This document shows, piece by piece, positions 12,333 to 63,195 of a stretch of 64,000 bases of DNA. A program made the translations under genes and the position numbers. A model generated the notes under the pieces. It saw only the letters and a list, made by a program, of their open reading frames with translations. It did not search any database and had not been told where the DNA came from. This DNA comes from Cephalotus follicularis (lineage: Eukaryota > Streptophyta > Magnoliopsida > Oxalidales > Cephalotaceae): assembly GCA_001972305.1 (NCBI GenBank), contig BDDD01000920.1, positions 33,316-97,315 of the forward strand. The letters run 5' to 3'. The stretch's first letter is position 1. The number at the start of each line of letters is the position of its first letter.

Positions 12333-13696
12333 GCGTCGATGTCTTTGGAAAGATGTCGACGCCTATGGGAACCCAGATGCACGTGAATACATGGACATGC
12401 ACGTCGATGTAGGGTGAAGACATCGACACCCTCTTATGAAAGAGGAAAAGACATCGACGTCTAAGGAAAGACGTCGACGTCTTTGAAAAGAATATCAGTC
12501 ACATTATGAACTGACAGAGTAACATGCAAGACGGAAGGAATTAGGATCCTTACAGGATCCTTGAGGCACGGGAAGGAGACGTGTTGATCATGCATAATGG
12601 CCTCCTGACCTGCATGACTAAAGAAGGAGGAAGAACATGACAAGTGTTGGTGTGCATGCAACCTGCAGAAAACATGAGAAGGAAACAAAATGAAATGCAG
12701 AAATTCACTGGGAAAGAGGGAGAGAACACGAGAGTGTTCATTGAATTCATGGAGAAAGAGGGAGAGGGAGCCATCTGCATAAGAACAACCCCCTCCCCAC
12801 CTCTCTCTCTCGTTAAAAACACCAAAGGAAAGGAAGAGGAGGAAACCAGTGAGTGGGAGAAAGAGAGAGCCACCATTGTTGAGCTTGATTGGAGGTAGAA
12901 ACTTGGAGCTCATGGATTGCAGCTGCTGAGCGGATCTTGGAGCTGCTGTGGCCGGAATCTTGGAACACAAAGAGGTGGACTTACAAGGTTTCTAACTTGA
13001 AACCAGAGGTAGGGGAAAGTGATGATTCTTATACATGCATTTTGAGTTTTAAAGATAATGAATGCCATTGGTGAATTGCATGTTAATGGATGAATTGTAG
13101 TCTCTGGACTTGTTGTGGTGACCACTTTGATGTACGGAGTGAACGTGCATGTGCAAATTACATGAATATTTGAACTGGTTTATGTAATGGATGATTTGGG
13201 TAATGACCTGGTGTGTTAAAACTATGGAAATGACGTTCTGGACTGAATAGACATTGACGTCTACCTAAAGACGTCGATGTCTACCCAAAGACGTCGATGT
13301 CTTCGTGTGTGAATGAAAAAGACATCGATGTTTGAGAAAAAACATCGACGCCTTTTCTGGGTATTCATAGAACAGTAGTGTTTACTGCAGATGGTGAATT
13401 GGCCACTTGGGGTTACGTGTTTATTTACGGATTGATGTTCTGGTTACATATCCTGATAACCAGTAGCATGTCTTACGCCTTGAGAGGGTGAGTTTTGCTT
13501 ACACAAGGGTTTAGGGGCCAGATTCTTCCCCCTAGAATCAAGATTTGCGAACTGATACCTCCTGGTATCATAAAGACATCGATGTCTTTGGAAAAGCATC
13601 GACGTCTTTGGTCCAAAAATGCCTGGGATTAACTGTACGAGGGGTTGACACCTTAAGGTAAAGACGTCGACGCCCTGGGAATAAGCATCGATGCCT
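12333..13696 (+). promoter_or_regulatory. GTCGAC-centred palindrome clusters in the CHR-B LTR
   Basis: Hexamer cores of the form RTCGAY or one-base variants begin at 12335, 12355, 12403, 12422, 12453, 12473, 13253, 13273, 13293, 13324, 13344, 13578, 13598, 13644, 13666 and 13687. Neighbours within a group are 19-22 bp apart. The fullest copy reads AGACGTCGACGTCT, a 14-base perfect palindrome. A regulatory role is inference; what is seen is the repeat and its spacing. Confidence 0.6.
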
Positions 13697-14728
13697 ATAC
13701 CCTTGTTTGAAGAAATTTCGCTCGAATGGGACCCGCTAGACCCGAAATGACTCTAGAAACTATCCTAGATGCATTCTGAGCATATGTTTGCATTATTACT
13801 GTGAATTGCATTATGGTTGATCTCTAAAAAGTGTTAACCATTTTGAAGAGCTTGTATGATTATTATAATCACTATTGTACGAAAATGTATATTTGTCAAC
13901 ATATGAATATATATATTTTCGAAATGACTGGGGAAAGTATTTTCCAAAGACGGATAAATGTTTTAAAGGATTGGTTACATAATTCAAAATGTATTGTTTT
14001 AAGTTTTATAACTTATCACAACCTGAGAACGGAGTAATATATTTTAAACAAATATATTTGATCAAGTGATTTATATTTTATTGCTGGACTTGTACTGTAC
14101 GATGTTTGTGCTTGTTGATTATTAGCCGCTGTGCTAATAACCTGTTGATTGTTTGGCCGTCGTGCTAAGCAACCTGTACGGAGGACTTACTCCCAACCGT
14201 TCGCAAATGGGGATGGGGTAAGAGTGCATGACGTGGGGATCAGGAGGTGGCGACGGTCATGACGACTTGTTTGTCTGGTTCCTTTTGGGACATACTTACT
14301 GCTTATGTCGATGTAACCTTACGAGGTTATACCTGTACTGTGAACATGTATATACTTTATACATGCATACACTACGATATATATACTGCAATATATATAC
14401 TGTACTGCATCATAATGCATTCATTCATGATACACATTATCATATACCTCGAACTGTATTTATGAGTTTATTCACTTGGCCGAGTGAGGACAAAGGCTAA
14501 CCCCTACTGTAACAGATTGATAGAGTGGATTTGACATGGAGCATGCAAGGAGACTTAAGGAGAAGACTGAATTGTTTCTCTTATTTCTTGTACTGAATTA
14601 ATGAACATTGGTTATGTTAATTGGATTATTGTAACGTGGTTTACTTCATCCTGTACAGTTTTATCACGCACCGTTATGGGCGTTCGACTATGTTGTGAGT
14701 TTTATAAAAACTTGTTGGGTATCATGTA

Positions 14729-14733
14729 GTATG
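14729..14733. repeat. Target duplication of CHR-D, left copy
   Basis: gtatg before TGTAACACCC; the same five bases follow the right LTR at 25028-25032. This fixes both ends of CHR-D. Confidence 0.9.
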
Positions 14734-17478
14734 TGTAACACCCCCGATATGTGGGAGTCGCCACAGGTGCATATAACGTAACTTAACAAAACATATCATA
14801 TTTAAACGTTCATCTTTATTAAAAATGTGATGGTTTAAAGCATAACCAAAAACATATCGAAACTGATCATCAACAGAAACTTATTCAAAATGAAAAGTCA
14901 TAAACTGAAATAACACATTGTTTAATAAATGGTTCCACTATGACCACATAAACATAAAGGGATCTCCTATAAGACGATCCTCAGACATATGGGAGTCACT
15001 CTCATCACACATTGCCCCTTTGCTCCTGATAACCTGCCACATGGAAACAAAAACGCGGCTGAGCAAACCTCAGTACGGATATAGAATGTAAAAATAGTAA
15101 ACGATATTTTAAAGCAGGAAGATTTCCAAAAGTACATTAAAACTGAAATCTTAAGCAATAAAATAGTTTTAACATACTTAGTAATTGCCCACGGCAAAAC
15201 ATATAAAACAAGTTCATAACTTGATACCATAAAGTGTACCTTTTCAAAACATCGGATCAATAACTGAGCACCAAATCCCATAACATATCAGAAACCCATA
15301 GTAGCAAGGGGTTCGCGACACCCACATTGCCAAAAAAATTGCAGTATATGGCACTACACATACAATTCTCAAATCCCAAAACATATCCCAATAACATATA
15401 ACAAGGATCGATCCATACGCCTCTATCCCAAATCCTATCTAAGGATATCCCTGAGAGACACCGTAAACGAATCACACCGTTACGGAAAGTGTCATGCCCC
15501 CGTGTCAGGCTCATAGCATGCCTATGGTACCCCCATAGGTGGTTATAAAAGCTCAGTATTTCACCATTTCCAAAAATATGATTTCATCAAATCATTTTAA
15601 AATAAAAATGTTTCCCAAACCATTACCATAAATCGTACTCAAACGATATAGTTTCACATACTTTCATAATTAGAAAAATCAACTCATTTAATTTCACAAT
15701 AAAGAGATGATTGCATATCATTTCGTAAATACATCATAACTGATTTCATAAAGTCGGAATATTTACTTCATAAAATATCAAATGACTTTATTTCCAAAAA
15801 CCTAAATATACGGAATTCATAAACCAAAAGAAAGCATATTCATAAAACTGAGTGATAACAAACCGGAATCTGTATTTAATCTCAAACAGAACTGAAACAG
15901 TAAGAATGTGTCAAGGAACGAAGATCCGTACCTTGTGCGATCACAGATAAGCTTACGAATAACTGGTAAATTTGTTTTGCTTCACGTAGCACAATAATCT
16001 AAACAACATAACAATGTTCAAATAAGGGTCTAAAATTCATTTTGAGCATAAAACAGAATCATAACGATGTTTAGAAATAGACCCGGAGCATCAGAAGAAT
16101 AAACGGATGAAAACAGAAAATTACAGGACATTCCAGCCGACTGTTTCAAAAATTCAGTTTACTAACAAGGGGTGGCAGTCGACTACACAACAGGGCCAGT
16201 CGACTACTCAACCTGGACTTGCAGACAGTTGACTGGATCAGGGGTCCAGTCGACTACTCAACACAAGGCAGTCGACTGTTTGCACAATGCAGTCGACTAC
16301 TCAACTGTACAGTCGACTTGTTCATATGGGCAGTCGACTGTTCTGGGTATCAGAACAGCAGTTCAGTGCGATTTGTGCAATTTTAGCAACCAAGACTTGG
16401 ATTTTTCGACACTAGAAGGTTACCAACATGCAAAACAACTTCGTATGACATGTAAAACATTGTTACAACACAGAATTCGACAAAGGCATGTTGACAGAAA
16501 ATTCTGTCAATGTGACAGGGACTTTAAACCATAGCATGCCAACATTTAATCCAATTCTGTCCACTATCACCATTATATGCATCAAGCTAGATTGTATATC
16601 ACTTCCTAGATGTCTACAGATGGCTGCTAACACATAGTTACTTGACAGAAGAACAAGAATGCCGAAACCATAATTAAAATCATCTCTAGCAACCAATGTA
16701 CATAGTTTTGATGACAACGATCCAAAAACAAATCACTAAGGCATAACAATATAGAAAACCAACCTGTTGGATGTCAAAAACGGTTGCAGGAACACCAATT
16801 TGAATGACACAATGGCTGATCAAAAGCAAAACGAAAGGAAGACATAAAAATTCAAGCCTGCCAACCATACCTACATTGCCAAGAACGATTCCTATATAGA
16901 AACCATGAAGAACTAACCTGTTTAATGAAGCAAAAACACAAAGAACACAGTGACTCTTCCAATGGCAGGTTCGACAGCAAGGAGATATGGCAGAAACGAA
17001 GACTTTGACATACATATATAGCAAAATAATCGAAAACGGAAAAGAAGAGGAGATTGGGGAAAGAATAAGGAAACAATGAGACAAAATCATATTGATAAGG
17101 AAAGAGAGGATTGTTGCCGTGTGAAAATTATGAAGGAAGGAGAGAATTCGGGAGAGAGAGTTTGAGAGGGAGAGAGATGTCATGAGAGAGAGGGAGAGTT
17201 GAGAGAAAATAAAAGGAAATAAAGAAAAAGGAAAAATAAAGAAAAGGAAAGAAATAAATTAAAATGTGGTATTTTAAAATGGTTTTTAAATTATTTGATT
17301 AGTGGGATAATAATAATATAACTAATTTACCCAAGCCCAAAGTCCATACTAACAAACCCAAAATTAAGGCTGGTATCAGTCAGCCCAAAAGCATAAACCC
17401 AACATAAACATACAAATACTTAAACGAAAATAAATAAAACCCGTAAGAAAAATACGTACAGGTAAGCAGGGTATTACA
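14734..17478 (-). repeat. 3' LTR of CHR-D
   Basis: In plus-strand view it runs from TGTAACACCCCCGATATG to AGGGTATTACA, next to the polypurine tract. It contains a cluster of CAGTCGACTG-like sites at 16134-16340 and a long GA-rich tract at 17100-17240 that would read as a CT-rich leader on the element's own strand. No gene is seen. Confidence 0.9.
16134..16343. promoter_or_regulatory. CAGTCGACTG array, left LTR of CHR-D
   Basis: Ten sites related to the perfect palindrome CAGTCGACTG, seven with an intact GTCGAC core. Three are changed (cagccgactg, cagtttact, cagttgact); the partner LTR keeps two of these intact. Spacing is mostly 20-22 bp. A protein-binding role is inference. Confidence 0.6.
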
Positions 17479-22282: not shown

Positions 22283-25027
22283 TGTAACACCCCCGATCTG
22301 TGGGAGTCGCCACAGGTGCATATAACGTAACTTAACAAAACATATCATATTTAAACGTTCATCTTTATTAAAAACGTGATGGTTTAAAGCATAACCAAAA
22401 ACATATCGAAACTGATCATCAATAGAAACTTATTCAAAATGAAAAGTCATAAACTGAAATAACACATTGTTTAATAAATGGTTCCACTATGACCACATAA
22501 ACATAAAGGGATCTGCTATAAGACGATCCTCAGACATATGGGAGTCACTCTCATCACACATTGCCCCTTTGCTCCTGATAACCTACTGCATGGAAACAAA
22601 AACGCGACTGAGCAAACCTCAGCACGTATATAGAATATAAAAATAGCGAACGATATTTTAAAGCAGGAAGATTTCCAAAAGTACATTAAAACTGAAATCT
22701 TAAGCAATAAAATAGTTTTAACATACTTAGTAATTGCCCACGGTAAAACATATAAAACAAGTTCATAATTTGATACCATAAAGTGTACCTTTTCCAAACA
22801 TCGGATCAATAACTGAGCACCAAATCCCATAACATGTCAGAAACCCATAGTAGCAAGGGGTTCGCGACACCCACATTGCCAAAAAAAATGCAGTATATGG
22901 CACTACACATACAATTCTCATATCCCAAAACATATCCCAATAACATATAACTAGGATCGATCCATACGCCTCTATCCCAAATCCTATATAAGGATATCCC
23001 TGAGAGATGCCGTAAACGAATCACACCGTTACGGAAAGTGTCATGCCCCCGTGCCAGGCTCACAGCATGCCTATGGTACCCCCATAGGTGGTTATAAAAG
23101 CTCAGTATTTCACCATTTCCAAAAATATGATTTCATCAAATCATTTTAAAATAAAAACGTTTCCCAAACCATTACCATAAATCGTACTCAAACAATATAG
23201 TTTCACATACTTTCATAATCAGAAAAATCAACTCATTTAATTTCACAATAAAGAGATGATTGCATATAATTTCGTAAATACATCATAACTGATTTCATAA
23301 AGTCGGAATAGTTACTTCATAAAATATCAAATGACTTTATTTCCAAAAACCCAAATATACGGAATTCATAAACCAAAAGGAAGCATATTAATCAAACCGA
23401 GTGATAACAAACCAGAATCTGTTTTTAATCTCAAACAGAACTGAAACAGTAAGAATGTGTCAAGGAACGAAGATCCGTACCTTGTGCGATCACAGATAAG
23501 CTTACGAATAACCGGTAAATTTATTTTGCTTCACGTAGCACAATAATCTAAACAACATAACAATGTTCAAATAAGGGTCTAAAATTCATTTTGAGCATAA
23601 AACAGAATCATAACGATGTTTAGAAATAGACCCGGATCATCGGAAGAATAAACGGATGAAAATAGAAAATTACAGGACATTCCAGCTGACTGTTTCAAAA
23701 ATCCAGTCGACTAACAAGGGGTGGCAGTCGACTACACAACAGGGCCAGTCGACTACTCAACCTGGACTTGCAGACAGTCGACTGGATCAGGGGTCCAGTC
23801 GACTACTCAACACAAGGCAGTCGACTGTTTGCACAATGCAGTCGACTACTCAACTGGACAGTCGACTTGTTCATATGGGCAGTCGACTGTTCTTGGTATC
23901 AGAACAGCAGTTTAGTGCGATTTGTGCAATTTTAGCAATGAAGACTTGGATTTTTTGACACTAGAAGGTTACCAACATGCAAAACAACTTCGTATGACAT
24001 GTAAAACATTGTTACAACACAAAATTTGACAAAGGCATGTTGACAGAAAATTCTTTCAATGTGACAGGGACTTTAAACCATAGCATGCCAACATTTAATC
24101 CAATTCTGTCCACTATCACAATTACATGCATCAAGTCAGATTGTATATCACTTCCTACATGTCTACAGAAGGCTGCTAACACATAGTTACTTGACAGAAG
24201 AACAAGAATGCCGAAACCATAATTAAAATAATCTCTAGCAACCAAAGTACATAGTTTTGATGACAACGATCCAAAAACAAATCACTAAGGCATAACAATA
24301 TAGAAAACCAACCTGTTGGATGTCAAAAACGGTTGTAGGAACACCAATACGAATGACACAATGGCTGTTCAAAAGCAAAACGAAAGGAAGACATAAAAAT
24401 TCAAGCCTGCCAACCATACCTACATTGCCAAGAACGATTCCTATATAGAAACCATGAAGAACTAACCTGTTTAATGAAGCAAAAACACAAAGAACATAGT
24501 GACTCTTCCAATGGCAGGTTCGGCAGCAAGGAGATATGGCAGAAATGAAGACTTTGACATACATATATACCAAAATAATCCAAAACAGAAAAGAAAAGGA
24601 GATTGGGGATAGAATAAGGAAACAATGAGACAAAATCATATTGATAAGGAAAGAGAGGATTGTTGCCGTGTGAAAATTATAAAGGAAGGAGAGAATTCGG
24701 GAGAGAGAGTTTGAGAGGGAGAGAGATGTCGTGAGAGAGAGGGAGAGTTGAGAGAAAATAAAAGGAAATAAAGAAAAAGGAAAAATAAAGAAAAGGAAAG
24801 AAATAAATTAAAATGTGGTATTTTAAAAAGGTTTTTAAATTATTTGATTAGTGGAATGATAATAATATAACTAATTTACCCAAGCCCAAAGTCCATACTA
24901 ACAAACCCAAAATTAAGGCTGGTATCAGTCAGCCCAAAAGCATAAACCCAACATAAACATACAAATACTTAAACGAAAATAAATAAAACCCGTAAGAAAA
25001 ATACGTACAGGTAAGCAGGGTATTACA
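22283..25027 (-). repeat. 5' LTR of CHR-D
   Basis: 2745 bp, same length as the left copy and about 3 percent different in the part compared. The GA-rich tract lies at 24655-24810. The palindrome array is at 23683-23889. Confidence 0.9.
23683..23889. promoter_or_regulatory. CAGTCGACTG array, right LTR of CHR-D
   Basis: Ten sites start at 23683, 23704, 23725, 23746, 23775, 23796, 23818, 23839, 23859 and 23880. Nine keep GTCGAC intact. Steps are 21, 21, 21, 29, 21, 22, 21, 20 and 21 bp, so nearly all sites face the same side of the helix. Confidence 0.65.
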
Positions 25028-26185: not shown

Positions 26186-27207
26186 GAAAATTAAAAAGAT
26201 AAATGAATAAAAAGACCGATCTTGTGTGTTTTCAAAGTTTCATAAGATTTTATGGAGGAGGAGGACAAGGAATTCATGTTCTTGCATATATATGTGTATA
26301 TATATATATATATATAAATATAAATTTCAGTCTTAGTCTGTAGCCTATTTGATTCGAGTAATTAAACCTTAGGGGTGTTCTACACCTAGTTCCTTAAAAC
26401 CAACTGGTTTGAGAGTAACTGGTGGAAAGCTTGCTACATGGATCTTATAGAAAGCTTAAGAGACTAAGACATATAAAAAATATATAAATAAATTTACCTC
26501 TTTGAATTCAGTATTAGTCTGTAGCCTATTGGATTCGAGTAATTAAACCTTTGGGGTGTTCTACACCTAGTTCCTTAAAGCCAACTGGTTTGAGAGTAAC
26601 TGGTCGAAAGCTCGCTACATGGATCTTATAGAAAGCTTAAGAGACTAAGACATTCCACGAATTTAAAAGTTGGTAAAAGAAGAAAAAATGAAGAAATATA
26701 TATATGTGTGTGTGTGTGTGTGCTAAAGTTCTTTTGTCTAACTCTGAAGTAGGATTTTGTGTTGTTGCGAATGCATATCTTGATTGGTCATTAATGGTGG
26801 AATAATGAAAATAGTTTGCTAAAAAGTTCCTTAATTGAGATGTGTTTTGATTCTAGAACTTGGAACGAGATAATAAAATTCGAGTATGGGGGTTTTCTTT
26901 AAATTTTTTAGTATTGATACATTTTACCTGTTTTCAAAGTTGTGATGAACTGAATTTTGTGTGTTTATTCACTGGAAAACACTCACGAGACAAAACTTGT
27001 CCACTAGGGCCACCTAGGGGTTTAACTGCTTGTTGCATAAGCTAAATGCAATCGTGATTCCTACGAAAGTGAGTTAGGATTTTGTTTATGTTCTTGTGTG
27101 TGCATTTAGTTTTTATTTTTGTGTTTGCGTGTGTTTTCTTGTTTTAGCTTTCTATTTGTTTAGCATAAAAATGTGTATGGGGGTATTTGTTTAAGTATGG
27201 GGGTATT
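26186..27207 (+). other. 3' noncoding tail of ATH-1
   Basis: No gene is seen. It holds an (AT)n run at 26283-26315, a 181-bp-spaced tandem duplication (26329-26655), a (GT)n run near 26703-26722, and from 26780 the same ordered blocks as 100-540. It ends with repeated tatgggggtatt tracts that act as the polypurine tract of the 3' LTR. Confidence 0.65.
26329..26655 (+). repeat. Two-copy tandem repeat in the ATH-1 tail
   Basis: Copies at about 26329-26474 and 26510-26655, offset 181 bp, differ by few bases. Each is bounded by gtcttagtct or a variant on the left and agactaagac on the right, which are inverted repeats of each other. Confidence 0.8.
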
Positions 27208-28337
27208 TGTTTAGCATAAAAATGTGTGGTTTTTAATGGGTTATTTGTTATATTTTTATGCTTGTAAACTACTTTGGTTGTGTTATATTGATTTTTAGGT
27301 ACAAGAGCAAAGGACCAAAGTGCATGAATATTACCCAAAGTTGTGCAAATTCGAGCTTCAAAGAGTAAAGATTGAAGAATTGAATAATTCTGTAAAAACA
27401 GAGTAAAAAGCATCGATGTCTTTTATAGATATTGACGTAATTTCTGGGTTTATTGAAAACACATCGACGTCTTTCATCAAAAGGATCGATGATCATTATG
27501 CGCATCTCAACAAAACGCAATTTTTTTACAAAACACGTTGACCTTCAACCAAAGGCGTCGACGTCTTCTTCTGCAGCAGAAATAGAAAGTTAGATTTTTT
27601 GCCAGATTTTGTAACTAGGATTGATTTATTTCCGTTTTTGATAAGTTTTGTAGTATAAAACAATACAAGGCCGGCCAAATTCAGTGTGTGGAGGCTGCTA
27701 GAAACCCTATTTTCTTCTTTGTCAATTTTAGTTTATTTTACAATGTTTAGTAGCTAAACTCTTCAAGGTTTTGGGGAAGAACAAAGCCTAGATTGTTATT
27801 GTTTCAATTCCATCAATAAAAATCCTTGAATATTTGATTTGTTCTTCAAATATGTCTGTCTTCACGCACACTTTGTCTGTCTGATTAAAATCCATAAACA
27901 TCTTGTCGGTGAAGCTGAAAATTGGTGAGTAAATGATGCTTAATTCAATCAATGGAGTCTACTAATACGGTTTGTCACAACGAACACACTTCGTATAGAC
28001 CTAGCATGTCTACTCATACGTCTTGCCTCTGTTGCCGTACTTCGTATAGACCTAGCATGACTACTCATATGTCTTATCATCACCGTCGCACTCTGTATCG
28101 ACCTAGCTGCCGCTGGTTATCAAGGTATGATCGTTCAATTAAATGGAATTGTTCAATACAATCTACGGTGAGTTTCTATACTCTAAAACCACTTTTTAAT
28201 TATATATTTTCTTGACTTCTATTCATTGTTTTGATTCGTTTTAAAATTGCATATTTTATTTCTTGGTATTTCGAATTCAGTGTTTTTAACTCTCGAAGTC
28301 TTAATTTCCTGTTTTGATTATTTATTTCGCATAATTA
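27208..28337 (+). repeat. 3' LTR of ATH-1, 3' end truncated
   Basis: Starts TGTTTAGCATAAAA and follows the solo LTR at 36873-38176 over most of its length. A TATA-like tagtataaaac lies at 27651-27661. GTCGAC-like sites start at 27412, 27431, 27463, 27485, 27538 and 27557. The end (ggtatacttcg through gtgaaca) is missing because CHR-E sequence begins at 28338. Confidence 0.7.
27651..27661 (+). promoter_or_regulatory. Putative TATA box of the ATH LTR
   Basis: tagtataaaac; the matching place in the solo LTR reads tagtataaaag (37464-37474). It is conserved between copies and lies about 450-600 bases into the LTR, as expected for the U3 promoter. Confidence 0.5.
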
Positions 28338-30446
28338 CTCACCTGCTCTGGCGGTTCACCCTTTGGATCACCAGCTCTGGCGGAATTCACCTTTAGGTTC
28401 ACCATTGGAGGAATCGCCTGAGATCACCTGCCTCGTGGTATTCACCCCTTGGGTTCACCTGCTCGACGGAATTCTCCCATGTTGGGCTTACCTGCCTGGG
28501 TCCATCTATATAATTCCTTTCCTTTTACATTCCATTTTCTAAATCTATTTCCTTCCTATCCTCCTTTCTTTCCTTTAACATTTACATTTCATTTTTTAAG
28601 CCTGACCAGGGCACAACATTGGGCCTGATGCCTTCCCATGCATAAGGCCCACCTCCGCATTACTTGCATGTCGGATGCAAAGCCAATATCACATAATCAT
28701 CTGCCCGCGCCGCATACATATACTTAGGCAAATATCCTTTCCTTTCGCAGGCGCATGCACATACTATCATATTCGGCTCCTTGAGAATGCATGCATGCAC
28801 GCACAATCAAGTGCTAAGGATGCATGCAAGGTGTGCACGTCCAGTTACGCATACAAGGGTATAGGCTTGGCTTATGGATGTCTTCTCGGAAGGCATGGCA
28901 GAGACCGTCACATGCTCAGGAGACATTGTCGGCTCATAGGTGCATGTACGGGAGGCATAGCAGAGAACGACTCATGCTCAGGGGTCATGGTCGGCTCGTG
29001 GCTGCTCTATCCTGGTGCACCCTCAAGATTATGGCAGAGGAGCGTTTTAGTTCAGTCTAGGTGGAGAGCTCTGTTACCCTGCACTGGCGCACAGATAGGG
29101 AGTGCATCCTCGACGCATGAAGGCCAGAATGCATCACTGGGCATCCTTGGCACCATGGCAAGGGCTCCTCGGGCATGGGTGCTCGGCACCTCTGCACATA
29201 GCAGCTCAATAATATGCCATGCCCAGGCATGGGAGTGAAGCTCGGGAGTGAATGTGGAGCTCGGGCATGGCAACAGCTCAGACATGGAAGCTTGGCACCT
29301 CAGCAACCCTGGCATTCGACCATGCAGCCCGGGCATCACAGGCGCATCACCCTGGCACCTCTGGCGATCTCCTCAGTACTTCTGGCACCAAGGCAACACG
29401 GCCTGAAAGCTCAACGCATGTTCGACATAGCACACAGGGGTTGTATATGGCACACTGTGGATGTATGCTTGGCGACTGCTAGCAGTGGAGGTGGCTCATT
29501 TGTCCGTTGGCGAGGATCTTAGATGCCTGGCCATGGTCGTACGCATGGCCAGGGAAGCTCCAAGCTTCACTATGGCAGCTCTGCTCATGGCGTATTTTTT
29601 CAAGGAGCAACATGTGCATAGTTAGGACGTGTACTTGGAGAAGAAAGGATGGCCACGTGATAGGCAAGTGTCGAGGCGCATGGCTTAGTTAGAACGCACA
29701 CCCGGGCGTACATATAAAGGAATCTAACTTGCAATTGCTAATTTAATTAAATAACAATAGCACACACATTCAAACAGACAATGAAAAGAGCACACAGCAA
29801 CCACACAGCAAAACACACTTATGCTGGTAGGCACTCGGATATAGAGCAACCTACCTGGGGTAAAGGTGGAAAACGGAGATCTCTTCCTCCTCCTTAATTC
29901 TGGACTTCCTTCAAACAGGGGTCTGCTACACACCCTCAGCCTTGCCAATTTCTCCTTCCTTGTACCATCCTTGCTCCCAGGGAAAGGGTATTTATACCAT
30001 TAGAGTGCAAGGGACATAGGGCCTCCATGGACAGCACCCACTTTGTCTTCTTCTTCCCACTCTCTCATTCTCCTGAATTCTCTGGATCAAATGTGCAAGA
30101 TAATTGGCTAAAGTGTATATACCAGGTCAGTTTCCCTTTTAATACTCACCATGGAAGAGTCTAGAATTTCCTAGACCATTTCATACAGTTACTGGGCCTG
30201 CCAAGGCTTGGGCTAGCCTCCTCCACTTGGACCCAAATTACACTTTCTACATTAAAGCGCAAAAATCCAATTACTACATTAAATCCAGCTCAAGGAGAAC
30301 AACATATTCTCTTTAGCCCAAGTTCACAAATTATATTCCATTAAGGCCCAGATAAATACATCATAAAATTCTGGCCCAGCCCAAAAAGGCAGGAAAATAA
30401 TTATAAAGCCCAATAATAATATTTAATAATATTTAGGGCTCTTACA
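28338..30446 (-). repeat. 3' LTR of CHR-E, truncated
   Basis: Matches the 5' LTR from about 35330 onward. The first 650 or so bases (TGTCACGCCCC end) are missing. It contains TATA at 29989-29996, a G-box CACGTG at 29654-29659, and many short repeats of the kind ggcatgg, ctcgggcatgg and ttcacc. The plus-strand frame 28675-29238 has a counterpart at 35664-36197 only because the LTRs are copies; it is antisense to the element and resembles no protein. Confidence 0.85.
29989..29996 (-). promoter_or_regulatory. Putative TATA box of CHR-E 3' LTR
   Basis: TATAAATA on the element's strand, kept in the other LTR at 38330-38337. Confidence 0.6.
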
Positions 30447-30458
30447 TCCTCCCCTCCT
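30447..30458 (-). other. Polypurine tract of CHR-E
   Basis: tcctcccctcct on the plus strand, so AGGAGGGGAGGA on the element's strand, flush with the LTR start TGTAAGAGCCC. Confidence 0.85.
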
Positions 30459-34681: not shown

Positions 34682-36867
34682 AAACTTGTCACGCCCCGAA
34701 TCGTGGGTTGGGCCCCACGACTCGACACGTGGCAATTCATACAATCATCATCATCATAAAAATTTTAAACTTAAATAAATCATCAATATAATCCTTTATT
34801 TAATGTGTGGATATACAGACCCAGTTTGATACATAAAAAAAATACACTGCTACAACCAGCAGATAAAATAAAAAAAATACATAATTTATTCTTCGAGAAT
34901 CCAACCATAAAGCGTACTGCCGAGGAGGAGGGACTTACTTTGCTCTTTATTCTTGACGTTGTTGCGATGTGCCACCACTACCTGTTCCTGTACCTCACCC
35001 ATTCAAAAGAATGGGTCAGCAACCCTGGGGGTTGTGTAGGTTACCCCATATACGGGCACAAACAGGAGGAACAAACAATACAAGCATAGGGGAAACAAAG
35101 ATAATAAATGCATATCATGAAAGCAGACCACAATACATAACATCATCATCCTTTGTCCTTGGACTACTCTACTCAAGTCATACATACCAATCAATAATAC
35201 AGAGGAGTCTGGTCCGATCATCCTATGGTCTGGTCAATATATAAGGTTCACCTTTAGGCTCTTTGCTCACCTTTAGCCCGCGAAATTCTTCTCCAGGTTC
35301 ACTTGCCGAGCGGAATTCGCCCTTTGCTCACCTTCTCTGGCGGTTCACCCTTTGGATCACCAGCTCTGGCGTAATTCACCTTTAGGTTCACCATTGGAGG
35401 ATTTGCCCGAGATCACCTGCCTCGCGGTATTCACCCCTTGGGTTCACCTGCTTGGCGGAATTCTCCCCTGTTGGGCTCACCTGCCTGGGTCCATCTATAT
35501 AATTCCTTTCCTTTTACATTCCATTTTCTAAATCTATTTCCTTCCTACCCTCTTTTCTTTCCTTTAACATTCACATTTCATTTCTTAAGCCTGACCAGGG
35601 CACAATAGTGGGCCTGATGCCTTCCCATGCATATGGCCCACCTTTGCATTACTTGCATGGCGCATGCAAAGCCAACATCACATAATCATCTGCCCGCGCC
35701 GCATACATATACTTAGGCAAATATCCTTTCCTTTCGTGGGCGCATGCACATACTATCATCTTCTACTCCTCGAGAACGCATGCATGCATGCACAATCAAG
35801 TGCTAAGGACGCATGCAAAGTGTGCACGTCCAGTGACGCATACAGAGGTACAAGCTTGGCTCATGGTTGTCTTCTCGGGAGGCATGGAAGATACCGTCAC
35901 ATGCTCAGGAGACATGGCCAGCTCAAAGGTGCATGCACGGGAGGCATAGCAGAGAATGACTCATGCTCAGGGGACATGGTCAGCTCGTGGCTGCTCTGTC
36001 CTGGTACACCCTCAAGATTATGGCAGAGGAGCGTTTTAGTTGGGCCTAGGTGGAGACCCTGCACTAGGGCACGGATAGGGAGTGCATCCTCAGCGCATGA
36101 AGGCCAGAATGCATCACTGGGAATCCTTGGCACCATGGCAAGGGATCCTCGGGCATGGGTGCTCTGCACCTCTGCACGTAGCTGCTCGGTAATATGATAT
36201 GCCAAGGCATGGCAGTGAAGCTCGGGCGTGAATGTGGAGCTCGGGCATGGCGGCAGCTCAAGCATGGAAACTCGGCACCTCAGCATCCCTGGCATTCACC
36301 TCGGTAGCCCTGGCATTCACCTCGGTAGCTCGGGCATTCGACCATGGCAGCCCGGGCATCACAGGTGCATCATCCGGGCACCTCTGGCGATCTCCTCAGT
36401 ACTTCTGGCACAATGGCAACTTGGCCTGGAAGCTCAATGCAGGTTCAACATAGCGCACATGGGTTGTATATGGCACACTGTGGACGTATGCTTGGCACCT
36501 ACTAGTGGTGGTGGAGGCTCAGTTGTCCACCGGCGAGGATCTCGGGCGCCTGGCCATGCTCGTACGCATGGCCAGGGAAGCTCCAAGCTTCATTATAGCA
36601 GCCCTGCCCTTAGCGTCGTTTTGCAAGGAGCAACATGTGCGTAGTCAGGATGCGTACTTGGAGAAGAAAGGATGTCCACGTGATTGGCACGTGTCGAGGC
36701 CTATGGCTTAGTTAGAACGCATACCCGGGCATACATATATAGGAATCTAACTTGCAATTGCTAATTTAATTAAATAATAATAGCACATGCATTCAAACAG
36801 ACAATGAAAAGAGCACACAGCAACCACACAGCAAAACACACATATGCTGGTAGGCACTCGGATATAG

Positions 36868-36872: not shown

Positions 36873-38176
36873 TGTACAGCATAAAAATGTGTTGTTTTTA
36901 ATGAGTTATTTGTTATATTTTTATGCTTCGAATAGACTACTTTGGTTGTGTTATATTGATTTTCAGGTACAAGTGCAAAATGACCAAAGTGCAAGAATAC
37001 TACCCAAAAGTGTGCAAATTAGCGCATGAAAGAGTAAAGATTGAAGAATTGACAAAATCGGCAGAAACAGAGTGAAAAGCGTCGACGTTTATCATACGGA
37101 TCGATGTCTTTTCTGGGTTTACATCAAACACGTCGACGCCTTTCTTTGAGGATCGACGTCTTTTCTAAAAAAATGCAACTGACCTTCAAGACCTTTGAGA
37201 AAGACGTCGATGTCTTTCATCAAAGGGATCGACGTCTTTGTGCAAAATTGACCTGTAACTTTTGGACCAGAAGGGATCGACGTCTTTCCGCTTAGGGGTC
37301 GACGTCTTTCAAGCGCATCCCAGCAAAACGCGATTTTTACCAAAAGACATCGACATCTTTTGATAGGGATCGACGTCTTCTTCAGCAGCAAAAATAGAAA
37401 GTTAGATTTTTTGCCAGATTTTTGTAATTAGGATTGCTTTATTTCCGTTTTTGATCAGTTTTATAGTATAAAAGCAATGTAATTCCGGCAAGAGAGGAGG
37501 AGAGGCTGTAGAAACCCTATTTTTATTTTTAGTTTTATTTCACAATGTTTAGTAGCTAAACTTCTCAAGGTTTTGGGGAAGAACAAAGCCTATATTGTTA
37601 TTGTTTCAATTCCATCAATAAAAATCCTTGAATATTTGATTTGTTCTTCAATATTTCTGCCTTCGCACACACTTTGTCTGTCTGATTAAAATCCACAAAC
37701 ATCTTGTCGGTGAAGCTGAAAGTTGGTGAATAAATGGTGCTTAATTCAATCAACGGAGTCTACTCATACGATTTGCCAACAACGAACACACTTCGTATAG
37801 ACCTAGCATGTCTACTCATACGTCTTGCCGCCGTTGCCATACTTCGTATAGACCTAGCATGTCTACTCATACATCTTGTCATCACTGTCACACTCCGTAT
37901 CGACCGAGCTACTGCTGATTATCAAGGTATGATCGTTCAATTAAATGGAATTGTTCAATACAATCTACGGTGAGTTTCTATACCCTAAAACCGCTTTTTA
38001 ATTATATATTTTCTTAGCTTCTAATCATTAGTTTGATAGTTTATCTCAAAACTTGGTATACTTCGCCTAGGTTGGATAGATTACAACTAGTTTATCGTTT
38101 CCCTGTGTTTGACCCGTTACTGCATGATCCGTGCACTTGTGGCTATAAATTTTAAAACATTCTTTTTAAGTGAACA
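36873..38176 (+). repeat. Athila/Tat-type solo LTR in CHR-E
   Basis: 1304 bp from TGTACAGCATAAAA to AAGTGAACA, flanked by agcaa on both sides, with no internal region: the product of recombination between the two LTRs of an inserted element. It shows the full LTR of the ATH-1/ATH-2 group: terminal inverted stem (36878-36888 with 36917-36927), ten GTCGAC-like sites (37081-37374), TATA at about 37467, and the end also seen at 11731-11855. Confidence 0.9.
37079..37377 (+). promoter_or_regulatory. GTCGAC-centred palindrome array in the solo LTR
   Basis: Cores start at 37081, 37100, 37132, 37152, 37206, 37228, 37276, 37298, 37349 and 37369. They form five pairs with steps of 19, 20, 22, 22 and 20 bp. 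The common form is ATCGACGTCTTT or GTCGACGTCTTT. Confidence 0.6.
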
Positions 38177-40205: not shown

Positions 40206-40426
40206 ATCATTCAAGACTAGATTAATGGATTAAGGATTTCTTTAAGCTGTTTCTGTGTTGGAATCGACCACATGCGCTTATGGATCCCTTGGATCGAGTG
40301 TTAAATTGTCTGTTTTGGACTTGAGCTATTAATGAGATGACTAACAGGCATATGTTAATGTTTTACTAAGTCCTTGGACTGTGGACACATTTATTTAGAG
40401 CATTGGCGCTTTGTGTAAGAGATAAT

Positions 40427-40755: not shown

Positions 40756-41134
40756 ACCTCGTACTAGAGGCAGACGCCAAATGTAGAGGTCAGAGCACAA
40801 TGCTTGTCGTCTGACATCAAGACTTAGGTAAGCTACTACTGTGTAGCCTAGGCAAACCTCCTCTGATATGCCTCTGACCAAAAAGGTTTTATGGTGAAAG
40901 GCCATAGGGTCCCAGACCTTTCTCGACACTATTGAGCCTTGACGAGATAACCACTCTCATCCTCTATGTCATGAAGGAATAGGGAGTTGGCCGTCTAGTA
41001 TGACTAATATATAGTCCTGGGAATCACTTTCATAGATGAACCTGCAAGGGTCAGCGATTATGACTGAACCAATGGGACACTGTCTTATAAGAGACTAATG
41101 TTCTTAGAGAAAAGACCTATCGGATCCCAATATT

Positions 41135-42268: not shown

Positions 42269-44636
42269 TGTAACACCCCCGAAACGGTTAGGAGTGCTTA
42301 AAGGACAAAATCTGAAACCTAACAAAACATAAGCATAAATTTATTCAAATAACGTGGTGGTCCAAACTAAAAATAGAATAACATAATCCTTACACAAATT
42401 TGAAAATCAAAATATTTTTCTTAACACTGGTCCGCACATGACCATAAAACAACTGTAACACAACAGGATCAAACTCCTAGGTAGTCCTCTGACATAGGGT
42501 AACATCTCTCATCATACATTCCCCTGATGCTCCCGATAACCTGTCGCATGGAAAACAAAAACGCGGCTGAGTAAACCTCAGTACGGATGAAGAATATAAA
42601 ACAGTAAACGCTAGTTTTAAAAGATAAACAAATATCTGAACTTTAAAATCATAAATCTCATGCATAACACGATTAAAATACTCTTTCATAAAGTAGAACA
42701 GAATATTCATAAAACAATTATAAAAACCTCATACTTTCCAAATAATTTCAAATTTCCCAAAATTCATAATTTTATCCGATTTCATAATTCCATACAGAGA
42801 ATCCGAGTACATACATATATATATAAATATGCAAGGGGTTCACGACGTCCATATGCCCGACGGAACAACGTGTACGACACTACACAATCAATTCCAAATC
42901 CGAATCCGAAAATATTTTCCTAGGACCGACCCATACGCCTCCATCCGAATGTCACACTCAGGTGATCAAAAATCCTATTCACAGGATATCAAAACATTGA
43001 GAGACGTCGTAGACTGATCACACCGCCACAGATGGTGTCATGTCCTCCGTGCCAAAGAACATGCCTATGGGATGTCATAGGTAGGTATAACTCTGTATGT
43101 CATTATTCCAAAATATTGTTTTATACTAAAAACAATTTAACAAAAACGGTTTTTTCGAACATATTCTGAAATCATTATCATATTAGTATCAACATACTTT
43201 CATAACTGCAAATCATACTCATTTAATTCTACAAATAATTAAAGGAGTTGACAATAATAAAATCCATATTTTACTCATATTAATCAGAATATGAAAAACA
43301 AAATATTGATACATTATTCATAGCATAATGTTTAAAACCCTAGAAATATCAAAGAAAGAGGAATTCGTACTTATTACACCAAAAGTAAAACTGAAATTTT
43401 CTAATAAAATCTGAAGATAGCCAAAAATGAGAAAATTCGTACCTTATCCATTCAAAATTAATCTATCACAAGAACGAATCAAAATCACGTAAAGGATCAC
43501 CATAAATGTCATGACAGGTGTTTTGGAATCCTAAACATACCAACCAATTCACTATCAATACATAAAAGATACCAACAGCAAACTGCCAGACAAAAGCGTC
43601 GATGTTCTAAACAAAAGCGTTGATGTTTAAGAATAAAGCATCAACTAAAGCGCAGGACAAAACGTCGAAGCAAAGCATTACAAAACTTGATAAAAGCGTT
43701 GACAGTCAAAGAAAAGCGTTGACGGTTAAGACTTAAGTGTCGACAAGAACGAAAAACAATCAACGCTTACAACATGTAGGACGATAAAACAGTTGCAAAC
43801 CCTTGTTTTTCTTAGACATGCATCCATAAAACAATTGTATAAACGTAACAGGACATGATTTCTCTGTTTGGAAACATCAGCAACACATTTTAAATGCATA
43901 ACATATTGCTTTATAGGTTGAACATGGCCATAACAACTTAAAAAACATGGTTCTTCAACTTTCATGCTTTCAAACAGGTTTCATAGATTACAACGTAGTT
44001 TTGAATAATCTAATGACTTATAAACAACAAAACAGTGATATATATACATCAATAATAAATCCATTATCAGACATACCTTTGAATGATAAGAAAACCGTGA
44101 TGAAGACGATGAAAGTGGTGCAAGCAAAAATGGCTATTTTTGGTTTGTAAAATCATGCAGGTGATGGAGTTTTAAAATGATGAAGAACGTGTAATTTCAA
44201 TGATAAAACGAGTGGATTAAAAGTTTACCAATTAGACAGAGAACGCGGCAAACATGTTAGGAATAATAGATAAACTAAATATGGCAAAAGCTTTCTTTCT
44301 AAACTCAGCCACCGACAATGAACAAATAAGGAAGAATGGCTAAAGCGTCGACGGTCATGCAAAAGCATCGGCGCCTAACCCTTTTCATACAAAAGTGTCG
44401 ACGTCAAATGCATAAACATCGACGTGATACACCTCTAAAGAAACGATAAAACCATAACATTAAGGCGTCGACACTTAAGACGAAGGCTTTGACGCTTAAC
44501 GCCCTTGACACAAAACGAACAGAGTTCTCAAAAAAAAAATCAAACTGTTCAAAAAAAATACATAACACATATAACATGTGATATAAAGATAACATATGAC
44601 ATGACAAACATATAGGCAACGAAAAGGGATATTACG
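42269..44636 (-). repeat. 3' LTR of CHR-I
   Basis: 2368 bp, from TGTAACACCCCCGAAACGG to GATATTACG in plus-strand view; the last base is G where A is expected. Two clusters of GTCGAC-like sites lie at 43598-43764 and 44347-44493. No gene is seen. Confidence 0.75.
43598..44493. promoter_or_regulatory. GTCGAC-like clusters in the CHR-I LTR
   Basis: Sites at 43598, 43619, 43640, 43664, 43698, 43718, 43739 and 43759 (steps 21, 21, 24, 34, 20, 21, 20), then 44347/44367, 44397/44418 and 44467/44488 (20, 21, 21). The usual form is AAAGCGTCGACG or a variant with TTGA or TCAA. Confidence 0.55.
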
Positions 44637-58204: not shown

Positions 58205-58221
58205 TTGGGTCAAAACCTAGC

Positions 58222-58857: not shown

Positions 58858-60469
58858 TGTAGCGCCCCCGACCCGAGTCCACTTTATGCTCAAAGCGAGC
58901 TCCGAAGATCGGTGCGTTACATGGGTGTAACCTTTGACCGTCAAATTATTTAATCATTCAACGATCCATTTCATACCATTTAATCTTGACTTAGATTTAA
59001 AATCTAACATTTTTACTTAATAACTTCACAGGATCGCGTATACTTACATATTTGAAACATAAATTTCAAAATGTCATATTCTCATTATCATGATCATTTC
59101 TAATACCTTTACATTGGTACATCACTTAACATATAACCTTTCACAGCGGAAAACATAAACTTATTACATAAAATATAACTTTATAGCATATACTTCCTTT
59201 TCGACATTTCTTCTTATGAGCTTCCTCTAAAGCTCGCATTCTTCATTCGATCATTCCCTGAAAACAGTTTATTTGAAAACAAAACATTGCAAGGAGTGAG
59301 CTTTTAAGAGCCCAGTAAGAATCATAGTCATAAAACGTTATCGAAATCCGTTGTTTTTGATAATCTTTATCAAAACGTTTCAAATCATACATTTCATAAT
59401 ACCTTTGAAAATCATCTTCTAGTTTTATAAAAACCAGAACATTTCTAAAATCATACATTTTCTGGTATATATAACCAGCATACTTGAAAACAATCAAAAC
59501 GTTTTCCGTTCAAACATTCTTGTGGTAATATCTCAGCCAAACTTGAAAACATACTTTCATTGAAAACCATTGTCTGGTCGGACCTCGACAGGTCCGATCA
59601 ACGCCCAAAAACGCATCACAATCACCTGGTCAACACATCCCTGCCCTTGACTCGCCAAGACTCGGCGCCAAACGCCGTGTCTCAGGCGACCGTGAGTCGA
59701 CTCGCTGAGTCGACTCAGCGAACACATACCGGCCGATCCCGGCCGTGAAACGCCACAACGGTGGTCGAAATGGCAAGAGCAAGCCATTTAGACCAAAACC
59801 CATACCATCCGCGACGCTGTCGGCGTCGGAAACGCACGGCAGAGGCGGCGACAGTGGCGGTGAAGAAGGAGAAAAGAAGAAAAAGAGAAGAGGAAAGGAA
59901 GAGTTACCTTCGGCCGGTGCGCCTGGATGGTCCGCCGTCCTCCCCCGGTCACGTGGCTGCCTCCGGCGTCGTCCCCGGCGTCCTCTCTCCCTCTCTCTCC
60001 CGATCACTCTCTCCCTCTCTCTGTGTTATTCACAGATGCAGGCGCTTCGTGCGCCTGCATTTTTTGTCATGCACGGGCGCGTAATGCGCCCGTGTGTGTC
60101 TCTTCCTTTATAACATTTCTGCTTCTTCATTCGTATTTACGGACAAAATACTAAAGCCTGGGTCCCGATTATTCCGTAAATTGCGACCAAAATAATCCAA
60201 ACGACAACCAAAATAATCGTAATGATAATGCGAACATAGGGCCTTACTGTCGCACATTAAAATAGACTTTATTAGCCGTTTCGAGCATCATGATTGCGGC
60301 TTCAAACGCGAAATGCCTTAGAACATTTCTTTATCATTCCTCTTTCAAAACTCAATCCCATAAAATGGAAAACATCATCAATTTCAAGAATTTCACTATT
60401 CTCAATAATTACATAATAATATTACATTAAAATCGTAATCTTACATTTTGCGAAAACTCGGGTGTTACA
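58858..60469 (-). repeat. G: solo LTR in the RT gene of CHR-F
   Basis: 1612 bp from TGTAGCGCCCCCGACCC to CTCGGGTGTTACA, flanked by cttaa on both sides (58853-58857 and 60470-60474). Minus orientation is inferred from its likeness to the CHR-D, E and I LTRs as they read on the plus strand. A GC-rich stretch at 59640-60110 gives open frames on both strands (for example 59745-60113 and 59630-60007). They overlap and resemble no protein, so they are not called as genes. Insertion plus duplication is 1617 bp, a multiple of three, so the RT frame downstream is unchanged. Confidence 0.85.
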
Positions 60470-61025: not shown

Positions 61026-61679
61026 GATCATATGTTATATGCCAAGTTTAGCAAATGTGAATTCTGGATGTCAGAGGTAGCTTTCCTTGGCCATATCATC
61101 TCCAGTGACGGTTTGTCAGTTGACCCATCCAAGATAGAAGAAATAAAAGATTGGAAATGATCGACTAATATAACAGAAATAAGGAGCTTTTTAGGCTTAG
61201 CGGGCTATTACCGCCGCTTCGTTGAAGGATTCTCTCGCATAGCTACTCCAATGACCCGATTGACGCAGAAGAATGCCGCATTTATATGGGATGAACAATG
61301 TGAAGTGAGCTTTCAAGAGCTGAAACATCGATTGATTTCTGCGCCAATCCTAGCATTACCTAAAGGTAGTGAAGGTTTTGTGGTATACAGTGATGCATCA
61401 GTGAATGGATTGGGATGCGTCCTAAAACAGAATGGGAAAGTAATTTCTTATGCCTCAAGAAAATTAACGTCCCTTGAAGAAAATTATCCTACTCGTGACT
61501 TAGAATTGGCAGCAGTGGTCTTTGCGATGCGTAAATGGAGGCATTATGTAAATGGGAGGAGATTTGAAGTGTATATTGATCATAAAAGTTTAAAGTATTT
61601 ATTCTCCCAAAAGGATTTAAACATGAGACAGCAGAGATGGATGGAATTGCTCAATGACTATAATTGTGAAATCCAGTAT
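61026..61679 (+). pseudogene. RT end and RNase H of CHR-F, cut by CHR-K
   Basis: The same frame continues with [25 protein letters not shown], a stop at about 61158 (tryptophan codon in DW), and [16 protein letters not shown]. From 61251 it is open to the CHR-K boundary: [49 protein letters not shown] and NYNCEIQY. The last catalytic aspartate (VADALS) is beyond the cut at 61679. The CNTQNFHSMY at the end of the open frame is CHR-K LTR sequence. Confidence 0.8.
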
Positions 61680-61843
61680 TGTAACACCCAGAATTTTCAT
61701 TCAATGTATTAAGGTAAATTCCTTTGTAATTCCATGATGAATTAATGAGAATTATGGATTTCCAACTTATGGTATTGAATTTCAAAAAAGGGTGTTAAAG
61801 AAATGTTGTTGAGTTGGAAAAATAAGAAAAAAGAGACGCCTGC

Positions 61844-63195
61844 ACGTCGGCACCAAGGGGTAGCATCGACGCCAAGAGGACAACGAAACGCTTAAGGTTC
61901 TTGCCTTAAGTCGTCAATGCCAAGAGATGGCGTCAACGCCATTGATTGGGAGAATAAGAAGGTAGGCGTTAACGCGGTTCATGGAGCCTGTTAGCGCCAA
62001 GGGGAGGAGTCAACGCATTGACGCGTATCATAGATGTTGATGCCAAAGTCTGTTGGCGGAGTAAGACAAGACACTGACATAAGATGCGTGAATGACATGG
62101 GAAAGGCACTTTAACTCTTCCCCATGCTCTGCAAAGACATAAAGGAAGGGAGAGGTGACTGATGGTTGTCACGTCGGCAGAGAGAAGAAGAAGAGAGGAA
62201 GGTGCTAGGCGCCATGAATGCGGAAAAGGGAGAAGGAGAGGGCTCATCCATAAAACACACACCTCTCACATTCACCTTCTTCTGCCCGTGCCGCGAAAGA
62301 AGGAGAGAAACCGTGAGAAACAGGAGAGAAAAGGGAGAAGGAGAGATCGTTTCTCCATTGTTGGACCTGGAAGCTGGAGGCTCGAACCAAGAGTGGAGCC
62401 AAGCTTAAACTTGGAGCTACTACGCCGAACCTAGGAGCTTAGAAGCTACTGGTCGGTAAAGCTTGAAGGGGTGGACTTCGATTCATAACTTGGAATCAAA
62501 GGTAGGGATCACATAATTGTGTTTTCTAGTTCAGTTGTAATTAGAGTTGTTTGATGAAAGCATGAAGGGTGGCTTGTGGTTTCTCTTGAGTGATGACCTG
62601 TTATACTGTTTTGGGTGATTATGAACTGAATATTGCATGTGTTGTTTGCTTAAAACCGTTGTTTTGGGACATGGTTACGGTTTACAATGAAAGAGATGAT
62701 ATTGTGGTCTCAAAGACTTCGATGCCACAGGTGCGCGTCGACGCCTTTGTCTGTTACGTTAGAGGAAAGAACACACGACGCGTTGGCGCCTAAGGTTCCT
62801 TACCTTAAAGCGTCGACGCCAAAGGAACACATTAACGCCTAAAGTGTCTGCCTGACACGGTGCTCTATCAATGTTGACGCCTAGGGTATGTGTTGACACC
62901 TGGAGCGAATGTTGGCGCCTTAGTGGGTTGCCATGCACGTCGATGCCTAGAGAGGACGTTTACGCCTAAAGGACTATTTTATACGTTGACGGCTAGAGCT
63001 TGTACTGACGCCTAGAGCACATGTTGGCGCCTGAGTGGGCTACCATGCACATCGATGCCTAGGATAGACGTTCACGCCTAAGTGAACTGCTTACAAGTTA
63101 ATGCGAATGGGGTATACATTGATGGCCAAAGAGACTGATTTTGTTTTGGGGCACAGGATGCATACACATTGACGCCTAGAGTTAGGTGTTGACGC
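61844..63195. promoter_or_regulatory. GTCGAC-like clusters in the CHR-K LTR
   Basis: Paired sites at 61846/61865, 61913/61932, 61990/62009, 62017/62036, 62718/62737, 62812/62831, 62873/62892/62911, 62939/62958, 62985/63004/63023, 63051/63070 and 63168/63188. All steps within groups are 19 bp except the last (20). The fullest form is GGCGTCGACGCC-like (aGCGTCGACGCC). Confidence 0.6.

Follow-up and report, generated by a model that had tools for sequence, protein, structure and literature searches.

Regularly spaced arrays of RTCGAY palindromes in the long terminal repeats of Ty3/Gypsy retrotransposons of Cephalotus follicularis

The locus and its palindrome arrays

The window, a stretch of 64,000 nucleotides from the genome of Cephalotus follicularis (assembly GCA_001972305.1, contig BDDD01000920.1, positions 33,316 to 97,315 of the forward strand), is composed of nested Ty3/Gypsy retrotransposons. 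Pfam domains of protease, reverse transcriptase (RT), RNaseH, integrase and gag are found within it, together with a sub-threshold chromodomain. Several of the long terminal repeats (LTRs) contain arrays of a short palindrome with the core RTCGAY. An earlier note on this DNA had described clusters of GTCGAC-centred palindromes in the LTRs of an Athila-like group (A, copies A1 and A2) and of four chromoviruses (CHR-B, CHR-D, CHR-I and CHR-K, hereafter B, D, I and K). The clusters are present at these places and exceed the numbers seen in dinucleotide shuffles. The observation is confirmed and the pattern reaches beyond the window; the feature is real, geometrically regular and spread through the genome.

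A Gypsy-type RT-RNaseH, an H2C2 integrase, a Tf2-1 SH3 domain and the sub-threshold chromodomain lie near B, D and K. The A elements are presumably Athila-like, a label taken from the earlier note. Arrays lie near the start of the B LTR and again at its middle, mid-LTR in D and close to the promoter in A (Table 1). A TATA box lies at 27654 in A1, 97 bp past the last core, and at 37467 in A2, 98 bp past the last core. Taken over its full length, the K LTR segment holds five pairs of GACGCC-type arms 19 bp apart and one pair at 20 bp.

Table 1. Palindrome arrays in the LTRs of the window. Positions are those of the window; distances are in bp.
Feature	Positions	Strand	Sites	Distances
CHR-B LTR, array 1	12329..12484	+	six RTCGAY units	20, 48, 19, 31, 20
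CHR-B LTR, array 2	13247..13355	+	13253 (decayed), 13273, 13293, 13324, 13344	20, 31, 20
CHR-B LTR, array 3	13572..13698	+	13578, 13598, 13644 (decayed), 13666, 13687	
CHR-D 3′ LTR	14734..17478	-	array 16172-16344: 7 intact GTCGAC and decayed copies	
CHR-D 5′ LTR	22283..25027	-	array 23700-23893: 9 intact AGTCGACT units	21, 21, 29, 21, 22, 21, 20, 21
Athila-like LTR, copy A1, array	27406..27568	+		
Athila-like LTR, copy A2, array	37075..37380	+	five site pairs	19, 32, 20, 54, 22, 48, 22, 51, 20
CHR-I LTR, array 1	43592..43770	-	mostly decayed; approximately at the CHR-D array position in the homologous LTR (loose alignment)	
CHR-I LTR, array 2	44341..44494	-	44347, 44367 (variant), 44397, 44418, 44467	
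CHR-K LTR, array 1	61840..62042	+	largely decayed pairs	19
CHR-K LTR, array 2	62712..63194	+	right arms of GACGCC type	

Site enrichment in the window

From its dinucleotide composition the window should hold 6.7 copies of GTCGAC; 34 are present, an excess of about fivefold, and among the palindromic 6-mers only TATATA has a higher ratio. Enrichment was then determined for each LTR with 300 dinucleotide shuffles per LTR over 11 segments. RTCGAY was counted 15 times in B (1.8 in shuffles), 10 and 8 times in the two D LTRs, D5 and D3 (1.5 in each), 11 times in A2 (1.2), 5 times in A1 (0.8), 6 times in I (2.2; p=0.017) and 5 times in K (1.2). Pairs at 19-22 bp numbered 7 in B, 7 in D5, 5 in D3, 5 in A2, 1 each in A1 and I and none in K, with shuffle means of at most 0.01. 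An unbiased ranking of 8-mers was also made in 13 segments. Words belonging to the RTCGAY unit took the top place in six of them (A1, A2, B, D5, I, K) but in no case among the other seven.

The search was also relaxed to admit the CpG-decay forms RTTGAY and RTCAAY over 15 segments. With these, four pairs at 19-22 bp were found in K (0.12 in shuffles) and six in I (0.26), and the spacing was seen in A1, A2, B, D5, I and K alike. The K arrays are mostly a decayed form of the RTCGAY array. The claim of the earlier note that the 19-22 bp spacing is common to all families holds far above shuffles, for K only through the decay forms.

The same note had reported that the LTRs of CHR-E, J, F and G lack arrays, and this was borne out for J, with an RTCGAY count of 1 in J5 and 0 in J3. 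A decayed J array was considered and rejected, as the relaxed pairs (two in J5, p=0.003; one in J3, p=0.06) come from scattered sites. Two LTR-like fragments, 29845-30447 and 38177-38778, are 93% identical to each other. They contain no RTCGAY, and hardly any CpG remains there: the observed/expected ratio is 0.08 and 0.20, against 0.53-1.14 in the other nine LTR segments.

The unit and its dialects

Approximately 6 bp on each side of the core are conserved. Farther out, identity is at or near chance in A and B, where spacer identity is 0.25-0.30 in A2 (baseline 0.29) and 0.30-0.36 in B (baseline 0.26). It is somewhat higher, among few units, in D (0.28-0.41), I (0.26-0.47) and K (0.28-0.50). 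The homologous spacers expected of a tandem minisatellite are therefore not seen in A and B.

A profile of the unit was drawn from 141 array sites, one D LTR being left out. It is dyad-symmetric, with GTCGAC as the core of 65 sites, ATCGAC of 31, ATCGAT of 25 and GTCGAT of 20. The commonest octamers were AGTCGACT (31 sites) and the four CRTCGAYG forms (65 together), and these are the two main dialects of the site. The modal bases at -1 and +1 are complementary in 24 of 27 arrays, and at offsets 2-6 in 15-17 of 27. The difference between the dialects is thus a symmetric one. As the earlier note had proposed, a shared core is joined to flanks that depend on the family. Within arrays, left and right bases are independent at all six offsets (lowest p 0.07), and the core R and Y also vary independently (39 sites, p=1). 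This independence is the pattern expected of protein sites.

It bears as well on the RNA hairpins suggested in the earlier note. On this reading, RNA or single-strand hairpins would arise where neighbouring palindromes pair in the transcript, to serve as RNA signals or as a source of small RNAs. For six of the 11 arrays, folding on the element strand falls under the 5th percentile of the background (z -3.9 to -10.3), the other five giving -1.6 to -2.8. Palindromes of maize Sireviruses are reported as hotspots of small RNA (PMC5311732, PMC10760457). Against this, when units were held fixed and spacers shuffled, six of the seven arrays tested (the I1 and K arrays lie outside the test) gained nothing, and only I2 folded better than its control (z -2.8). 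Selection for RNA hairpins was rejected on this fold test, the palindromes alone accounting for the six arrays. The left and right arms do not covary, and the 10.25-bp lattice described below is not predicted by pairing. Hairpins may arise as a by-product of the palindromes, and their role as the selected feature is distinctly unlikely.

One 15-mer form of the unit, AAAGACATCGAYGTC, has 41,916 exact forward and 41,458 exact reverse matches in the 1.58-Gb genome, compared with 123 and 134 for a reversed control. The ATCGAT form often matches both strands, and the total of AAAGACATCGAYGTC sites lies between one count and the sum of the two.

A third arm type, GAGTCGACTC, was noted at L030:6430-6575, a locus outside the window, with distances of 127 and 13 bp. 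A GTCGAC pair 13 bp apart (59696/59709) lies in the window just ahead of a stretch that matches L030, and is possibly an internal or coding feature passed on by descent.

Spacing and helical phase across the genome

A genome sample was taken of 28 ten-kb stretches chosen by contig number only, amounting to 280 kb (5,385 N) with 265 RTCGAY sites. It contained 41 pairs at 19-22 bp, in 10 of the 28 loci, whereas 60 rounds of shuffling left 0.43 on average and never more than 2. The earlier note had made its proposal depend on such an excess, which is present. The normalised rate of these pairs was 5.84 for RTCGAY and 0-1.71 for 15 other RNNNNY palindrome classes, a control list in which one class was entered twice. 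RTATAY yielded more raw pairs (54), from 698 sites.

The 19-22 bp spacing, given in the earlier note for most neighbours, is the commonest but belongs to a wider tendency of the genome sample towards whole helical turns. In a scan of periods from 6 to 16 bp, the best was 10.3 bp for adjacent distances and 10.2 bp for all pairs 24-130 bp apart. For all pairs at 15-130 bp the period was 10.25 bp (bootstrap over loci 10.05-10.30), with 99.4% of bootstrap periods below 10.45 bp and 0.6% at or above it. Seventy per cent of 221 distances lay within 0.2 turn of an integer, compared with 40% expected, and the whole-turn spacings were most often 2, 9, 4, 7, 11, 6, 5 and 3 turns. Adjacent distances above 22 bp gave a cosine of 0.29 at 10.3 bp (n=62, jitter p=5e-5) and 0.22 at 10.5 bp (p=0.0015), where the non-independence of distances within an array makes the jitter p-values optimistic. 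A helical period was first suspected within the window, the value 10.3 was fixed after the distances of the first 20 loci had been seen, and 10.25 was estimated from the same 28 loci; the scans and bootstrap outweigh the fixed-period p-values.

Single linkage on unit-masked flanks was applied to 28 arrays, to which the window contributes eight (K and I1 fall below the array definition). This gave 12 flank groups within 344 kb. The grouped arrays were selected for a 19-22 bp pair, whereas the scan and bootstrap over the 28 loci were not. For the phase mean over the 12 groups, none of 2000 jitters was as high, and phase beyond 23 bp was positive in nine groups. Ten arrays belong to groups with no member in the window and gave a cosine of 0.54 at the best period of 10.25 bp (0.45 above 24 bp). 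For nine of these, comparison of the flanks with the masked window at 1e-3 gave no match. The tenth (L030:7193) has an upstream flank that matches 59831-60319 of the window (71%), a stretch beside the K RT gene and free of arrays. The nine flank-unmatched arrays, with 47 sites and 84 distances, had a best period of 10.3 bp and a cosine of 0.47; above 24 bp this was 0.37, with 0 of 5000 jitters as high. Both dialects lie on the lattice, AGTCGACT with 0.62 (45 pairs, best period 10.25) and CRTCGAYG with 0.36 (63 pairs, best period 10.05).

Biased survival of CpG was rejected as the source of the phase. CpGs outside the units are unphased (n=21,572, cosine -0.01), as are those near arrays (n=381, cosine 0.02), and the 19-22 bp spacing persists among decayed sites, with 12 pairs against 3 for control words; their overall phase differed modestly (0.24 against 0.13). 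The unphased CpGs, array-near ones included, also speak against rotational positioning of nucleosomes, in which TCGA steps at 10.25 bp would only set the bending of DNA with no specific reader. Helical periods are usually quoted as 10.2 bp for nucleosomal DNA and 10.5 bp for free DNA, and the period found (10.05-10.30) is nearer to the nucleosomal value. An 18-bp dyad with arms exceeds the needs of a bend rule, and this explanation is considered highly improbable.

A neutral minisatellite, formed by old tandem duplications of a unit of about 20, 50 or 70 bp without function, would also produce repeated sites. Intervals of 50-51 bp from pair to pair recur, accounting for four of the ten counted across B, A2 and I (jitter p=0.0002, a post hoc result), and Tandem Repeats Finder reports short arrays at several of the array places. 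The G that always precedes the second core of an A2 pair may mean that pairs were duplicated as units, and between A1 and A2 conservation of the units does not exceed that of the spacers. However, a tandem lattice of 20.6 bp was rejected (cosine 0.001), and units persist in A and B while their spacers are at or near chance identity. One phase is common to groups with unrelated flanks, and a CpG-rich core would be expected to decay first. A minisatellite origin is unlikely.

At L019:493-615 in the sample, five RTCGAY sites alternate at 29, 32, 29 and 32 bp, approximately three turns, with no 20-bp spacing.

Kinship of the array-bearing LTRs

Kinship of the LTRs was determined by alignment with the palindrome units masked, against shuffles (25 for K-D). 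The D arrays at 16134-16343 and 23683-23889, both listed under CHR-D in the earlier note, are one case and not two: they belong to the LTR pair of one element, 97% identical and with the target site duplication GTATG. The B and K LTRs are homologous (score 118 against 32 by chance), as are those of D and I (441 against 44). Scores for K-D (46 against 32, z 4.1) and B-D (z 2.3) were treated as weak. No masked alignment was found between A and any of B, D, I and K. The description of the LTR groups as unrelated therefore stands for A against the chromoviruses and fails for B/K and D/I, which share LTR ancestry, and the window holds approximately three LTR lineages rather than five.

Capture of one repeat between families had been named in the earlier note as a finding that would count against it. 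The A-B similarity of 66 fell to 33 on masking, where chance is 31.5, and block capture between A and B was rejected. A loose alignment (approximately 40-60% identity per 100 columns; non-significant by itself beyond the 3′ half of D/I) places the D array against one I array of the two, and the second K array against the middle arrays of B. D and I, whose LTRs are homologous, retain the core with different arms.

This difference of dialect between homologous LTRs would suit a trans factor encoded by the elements, similar to the VANC proteins that bind VANDAL motif repeats and remove methylation. The targets of VANC are short noncoding motif repeats that differ between related transposable elements (PMC5735166). 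No extra gene was recognised here, where Pfam on 30 open reading frames (ORFs) gave retrotransposon domains, nothing, or matches below cut-off, and one unit is common to the A and chromovirus LTRs. A factor of this type is judged quite improbable.

A proposed dimeric reader of phased sites

The arrays are probably cis-regulatory modules of phased dyad sites for a dimeric DNA-binding protein, as judged from the arrangement of the sequence. Each unit of approximately 18 bp would be a dyad site with the core RTCGAY and arms of C..G or A..T, recognised as double-stranded DNA by a protein that is most likely host-encoded. Whole-turn spacing would align the bound dimers on one face of the DNA, allowing cooperative binding or offering a common surface for the transcription machinery or chromatin. 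Such modules would be placed in LTRs of several Ty3/Gypsy families of one genome. What is observed is the enrichment of sites, their dyad profile, the helical phase, the occurrence in families with unrelated flanks and the two dialects; protein binding, a host-encoded reader and control of LTR transcription are inferred. A dimeric protein stacked on one face of double-stranded DNA would leave a dyad whose positions vary independently, units that stay conserved while the spacer does not, and distances of whole turns. The earlier note had offered the same idea as one of two, and it fits the 10.25-bp lattice, which recurs in the nine flank-unmatched arrays. The A arrays also lie before the TATA box at a position expected of an enhancer.

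Several observations weigh against this reading. Identity between A1 and A2 is 50/73 in units and 72/99 in spacers, and non-CpG differences are 14/47 and 23/87, respectively; the units are no more conserved than the spacers, and purifying selection is thus not shown there. Non-CpG divergence between the two copies is 26-30% in the array region against 12% in the surrounding LTR. For B, D, I and K, no TATA box was linked to an array. The largest group, which is B-like (81 pairs of all lengths), shows no phase beyond 23 bp (cosine 0.00), and in the small groups F3 and F9 (6 and 10 pairs) it is negative. In the window alone, phasing is non-significant both for distances above 22 bp (10.5 bp, p=0.15; best period, p=0.08) and for pair-to-pair intervals (p=0.09). 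The sampled arrays lie only putatively in LTRs; pol fragments occur in 18 of the 28 sampled loci, and six of the ten loci that hold a 19-22 bp pair contain them.

With regard to the dimeric reader, the DREB core CCGAC is one base from TCGAC, and AP2/ERF proteins are taken as a lead, no more. A survey of plant LTRs describes sites for stress and germline factors, DREB1 included, as marking LTRs (PMC11656987).

More tentatively, and with considerable doubt, many unrelated Gypsy families may have converged on one grammar, in which dyads of the dialects CRTCGAYG and AGTCGACT are set on a lattice of 10.25 bp. Its readers would be a few related dimeric proteins of the host, perhaps acting where the DNA is wrapped on nucleosomes, a possibility raised by the share of bootstrap periods below 10.45 bp. 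Within 344 kb of genome, one site and one spacing rule recur across some 12 flank groups, and at least approximately 42,000 exact copies of AAAGACATCGAYGTC are present in the assembly. Should one protein read the site, that protein would itself be a single point of access to a large share of the transposon load in this 1.6-Gb genome. The convergent grammar, if true, would be a shared switch for much of that load.

Other features of the window

The A2 array (37075-37380) consists of strict pairs approximately 20 bp apart. The base preceding the first core is mostly C (4/5), that preceding the second is always G, and the pair may be a unit of duplication. A further A-type LTR start lies at 540-1275, with 70-636 being 78% identical to 26711-27301. 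It has no GTCGAC array and instead contains six CATGCG/CGCATG words at 970-1160, approximately 100 bp upstream of a TATATATA run at 1263. This is perhaps the same design with a different palindrome; CATGCG/CGCATG is no uncommon word elsewhere, with 33 places in the window. A 1.5-kb segment of 88% identity (28335-29849 and 35324-36872) follows the LTR piece in one A copy and precedes it in the other. Tandem repeats of approximately 25 bp at 40426-40759 adjoin a chromovirus.

Among the 120 matches listed for the CHR-D integrase, the best named were from Tanacetum, Helianthus, Arctium, Mikania and Smallanthus; many were without a name and a few lower ones came from other plants. Taken alone, these matches would point strongly to a host in the Asteraceae. 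No integrase relative was found in viral contigs, and an 18-mer search of these gave seven contigs with one palindrome each, taken as chance. ARAGORN detected no tRNA in the window.

Comparison with known systems

The ACGT box of plant bZIP factors is known in arrays of the C-box GACGTC. The earlier note had pointed to this box, and GACGTC does occur within many B and A units, but ACGT is not common to all families. The D units CAGTCGACTG lack ACGT yet keep the same spacing, and 31 of the 141 array sites are AGTCGACT octamers without it, whereas a bZIP system would have ACGT in every site.

Cis-regulatory regions of transposable elements have been described as arrays of sometimes palindromic repeats (PMC10760457); the summary in that source includes no case with an RTCGAY core or a helical rule common to many families. 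Among the listed titles and abstracts of the open-licence literature searched, no report of GTCGAC arrays in Gypsy LTRs was found.

The VANC/VANDAL arrays of Arabidopsis are similar in that a short motif, varying between related families, is repeated in noncoding transposon DNA (PMC5735166). Their motifs YAGTATTAY and AGTTGTCC/AGTTGTAC differ from the RTCGAY dyad (PMC5735166). VANDALs carry their own VANC gene and none was recognised here: no VANC-type domain was recognised in the Pfam scan of 30 ORFs, which left out short or broken ORFs and in which the Pfam coverage of VANC is unchecked. Fast turnover is reported for the VANC target arrays (PMC10398659) and fast change for Sirevirus palindromes (PMC5311732).

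The palindromic repeated-motif (RM) boxes of Sireviruses, a Ty1/copia group, were described by Bousios et al. in 2010 for 13 of 21 Sireviruses and reported to be lacking in the remaining Copia elements of that comparison (PMC2829016). As in the present arrays, many palindrome copies are found per LTR with otherwise divergent flanks. RM boxes mostly bear CpG and are clustered upstream of the TATA box in most elements, and the A1 and A2 arrays end 97-98 bp upstream of theirs. Two of the 13 listed boxes hold RTCGAY, CGGTCGACCG of Vitis and ACAATCGATTGT of Tnd-1 (PMC2829016). Unlike RM boxes, the present arrays belong to Gypsy rather than Copia, as judged from the RT-RNaseH and integrase near B, D and K, and have the core RTCGAY without a CGG-CCG signature. 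The B and D arrays also lie mid-LTR, and pairs on a 10.25-bp lattice are present, whereas the available text on RM boxes contains no spacing rule (PMC2829016). The Sirevirus RM boxes are the closest known system, and the VANC arrays are the closest in evolutionary behaviour. If the reading by a dimeric protein is true, palindromic LTR boxes, described in 2010 as a Sirevirus feature (PMC2829016), would exist in Gypsy elements too and follow a geometric rule.

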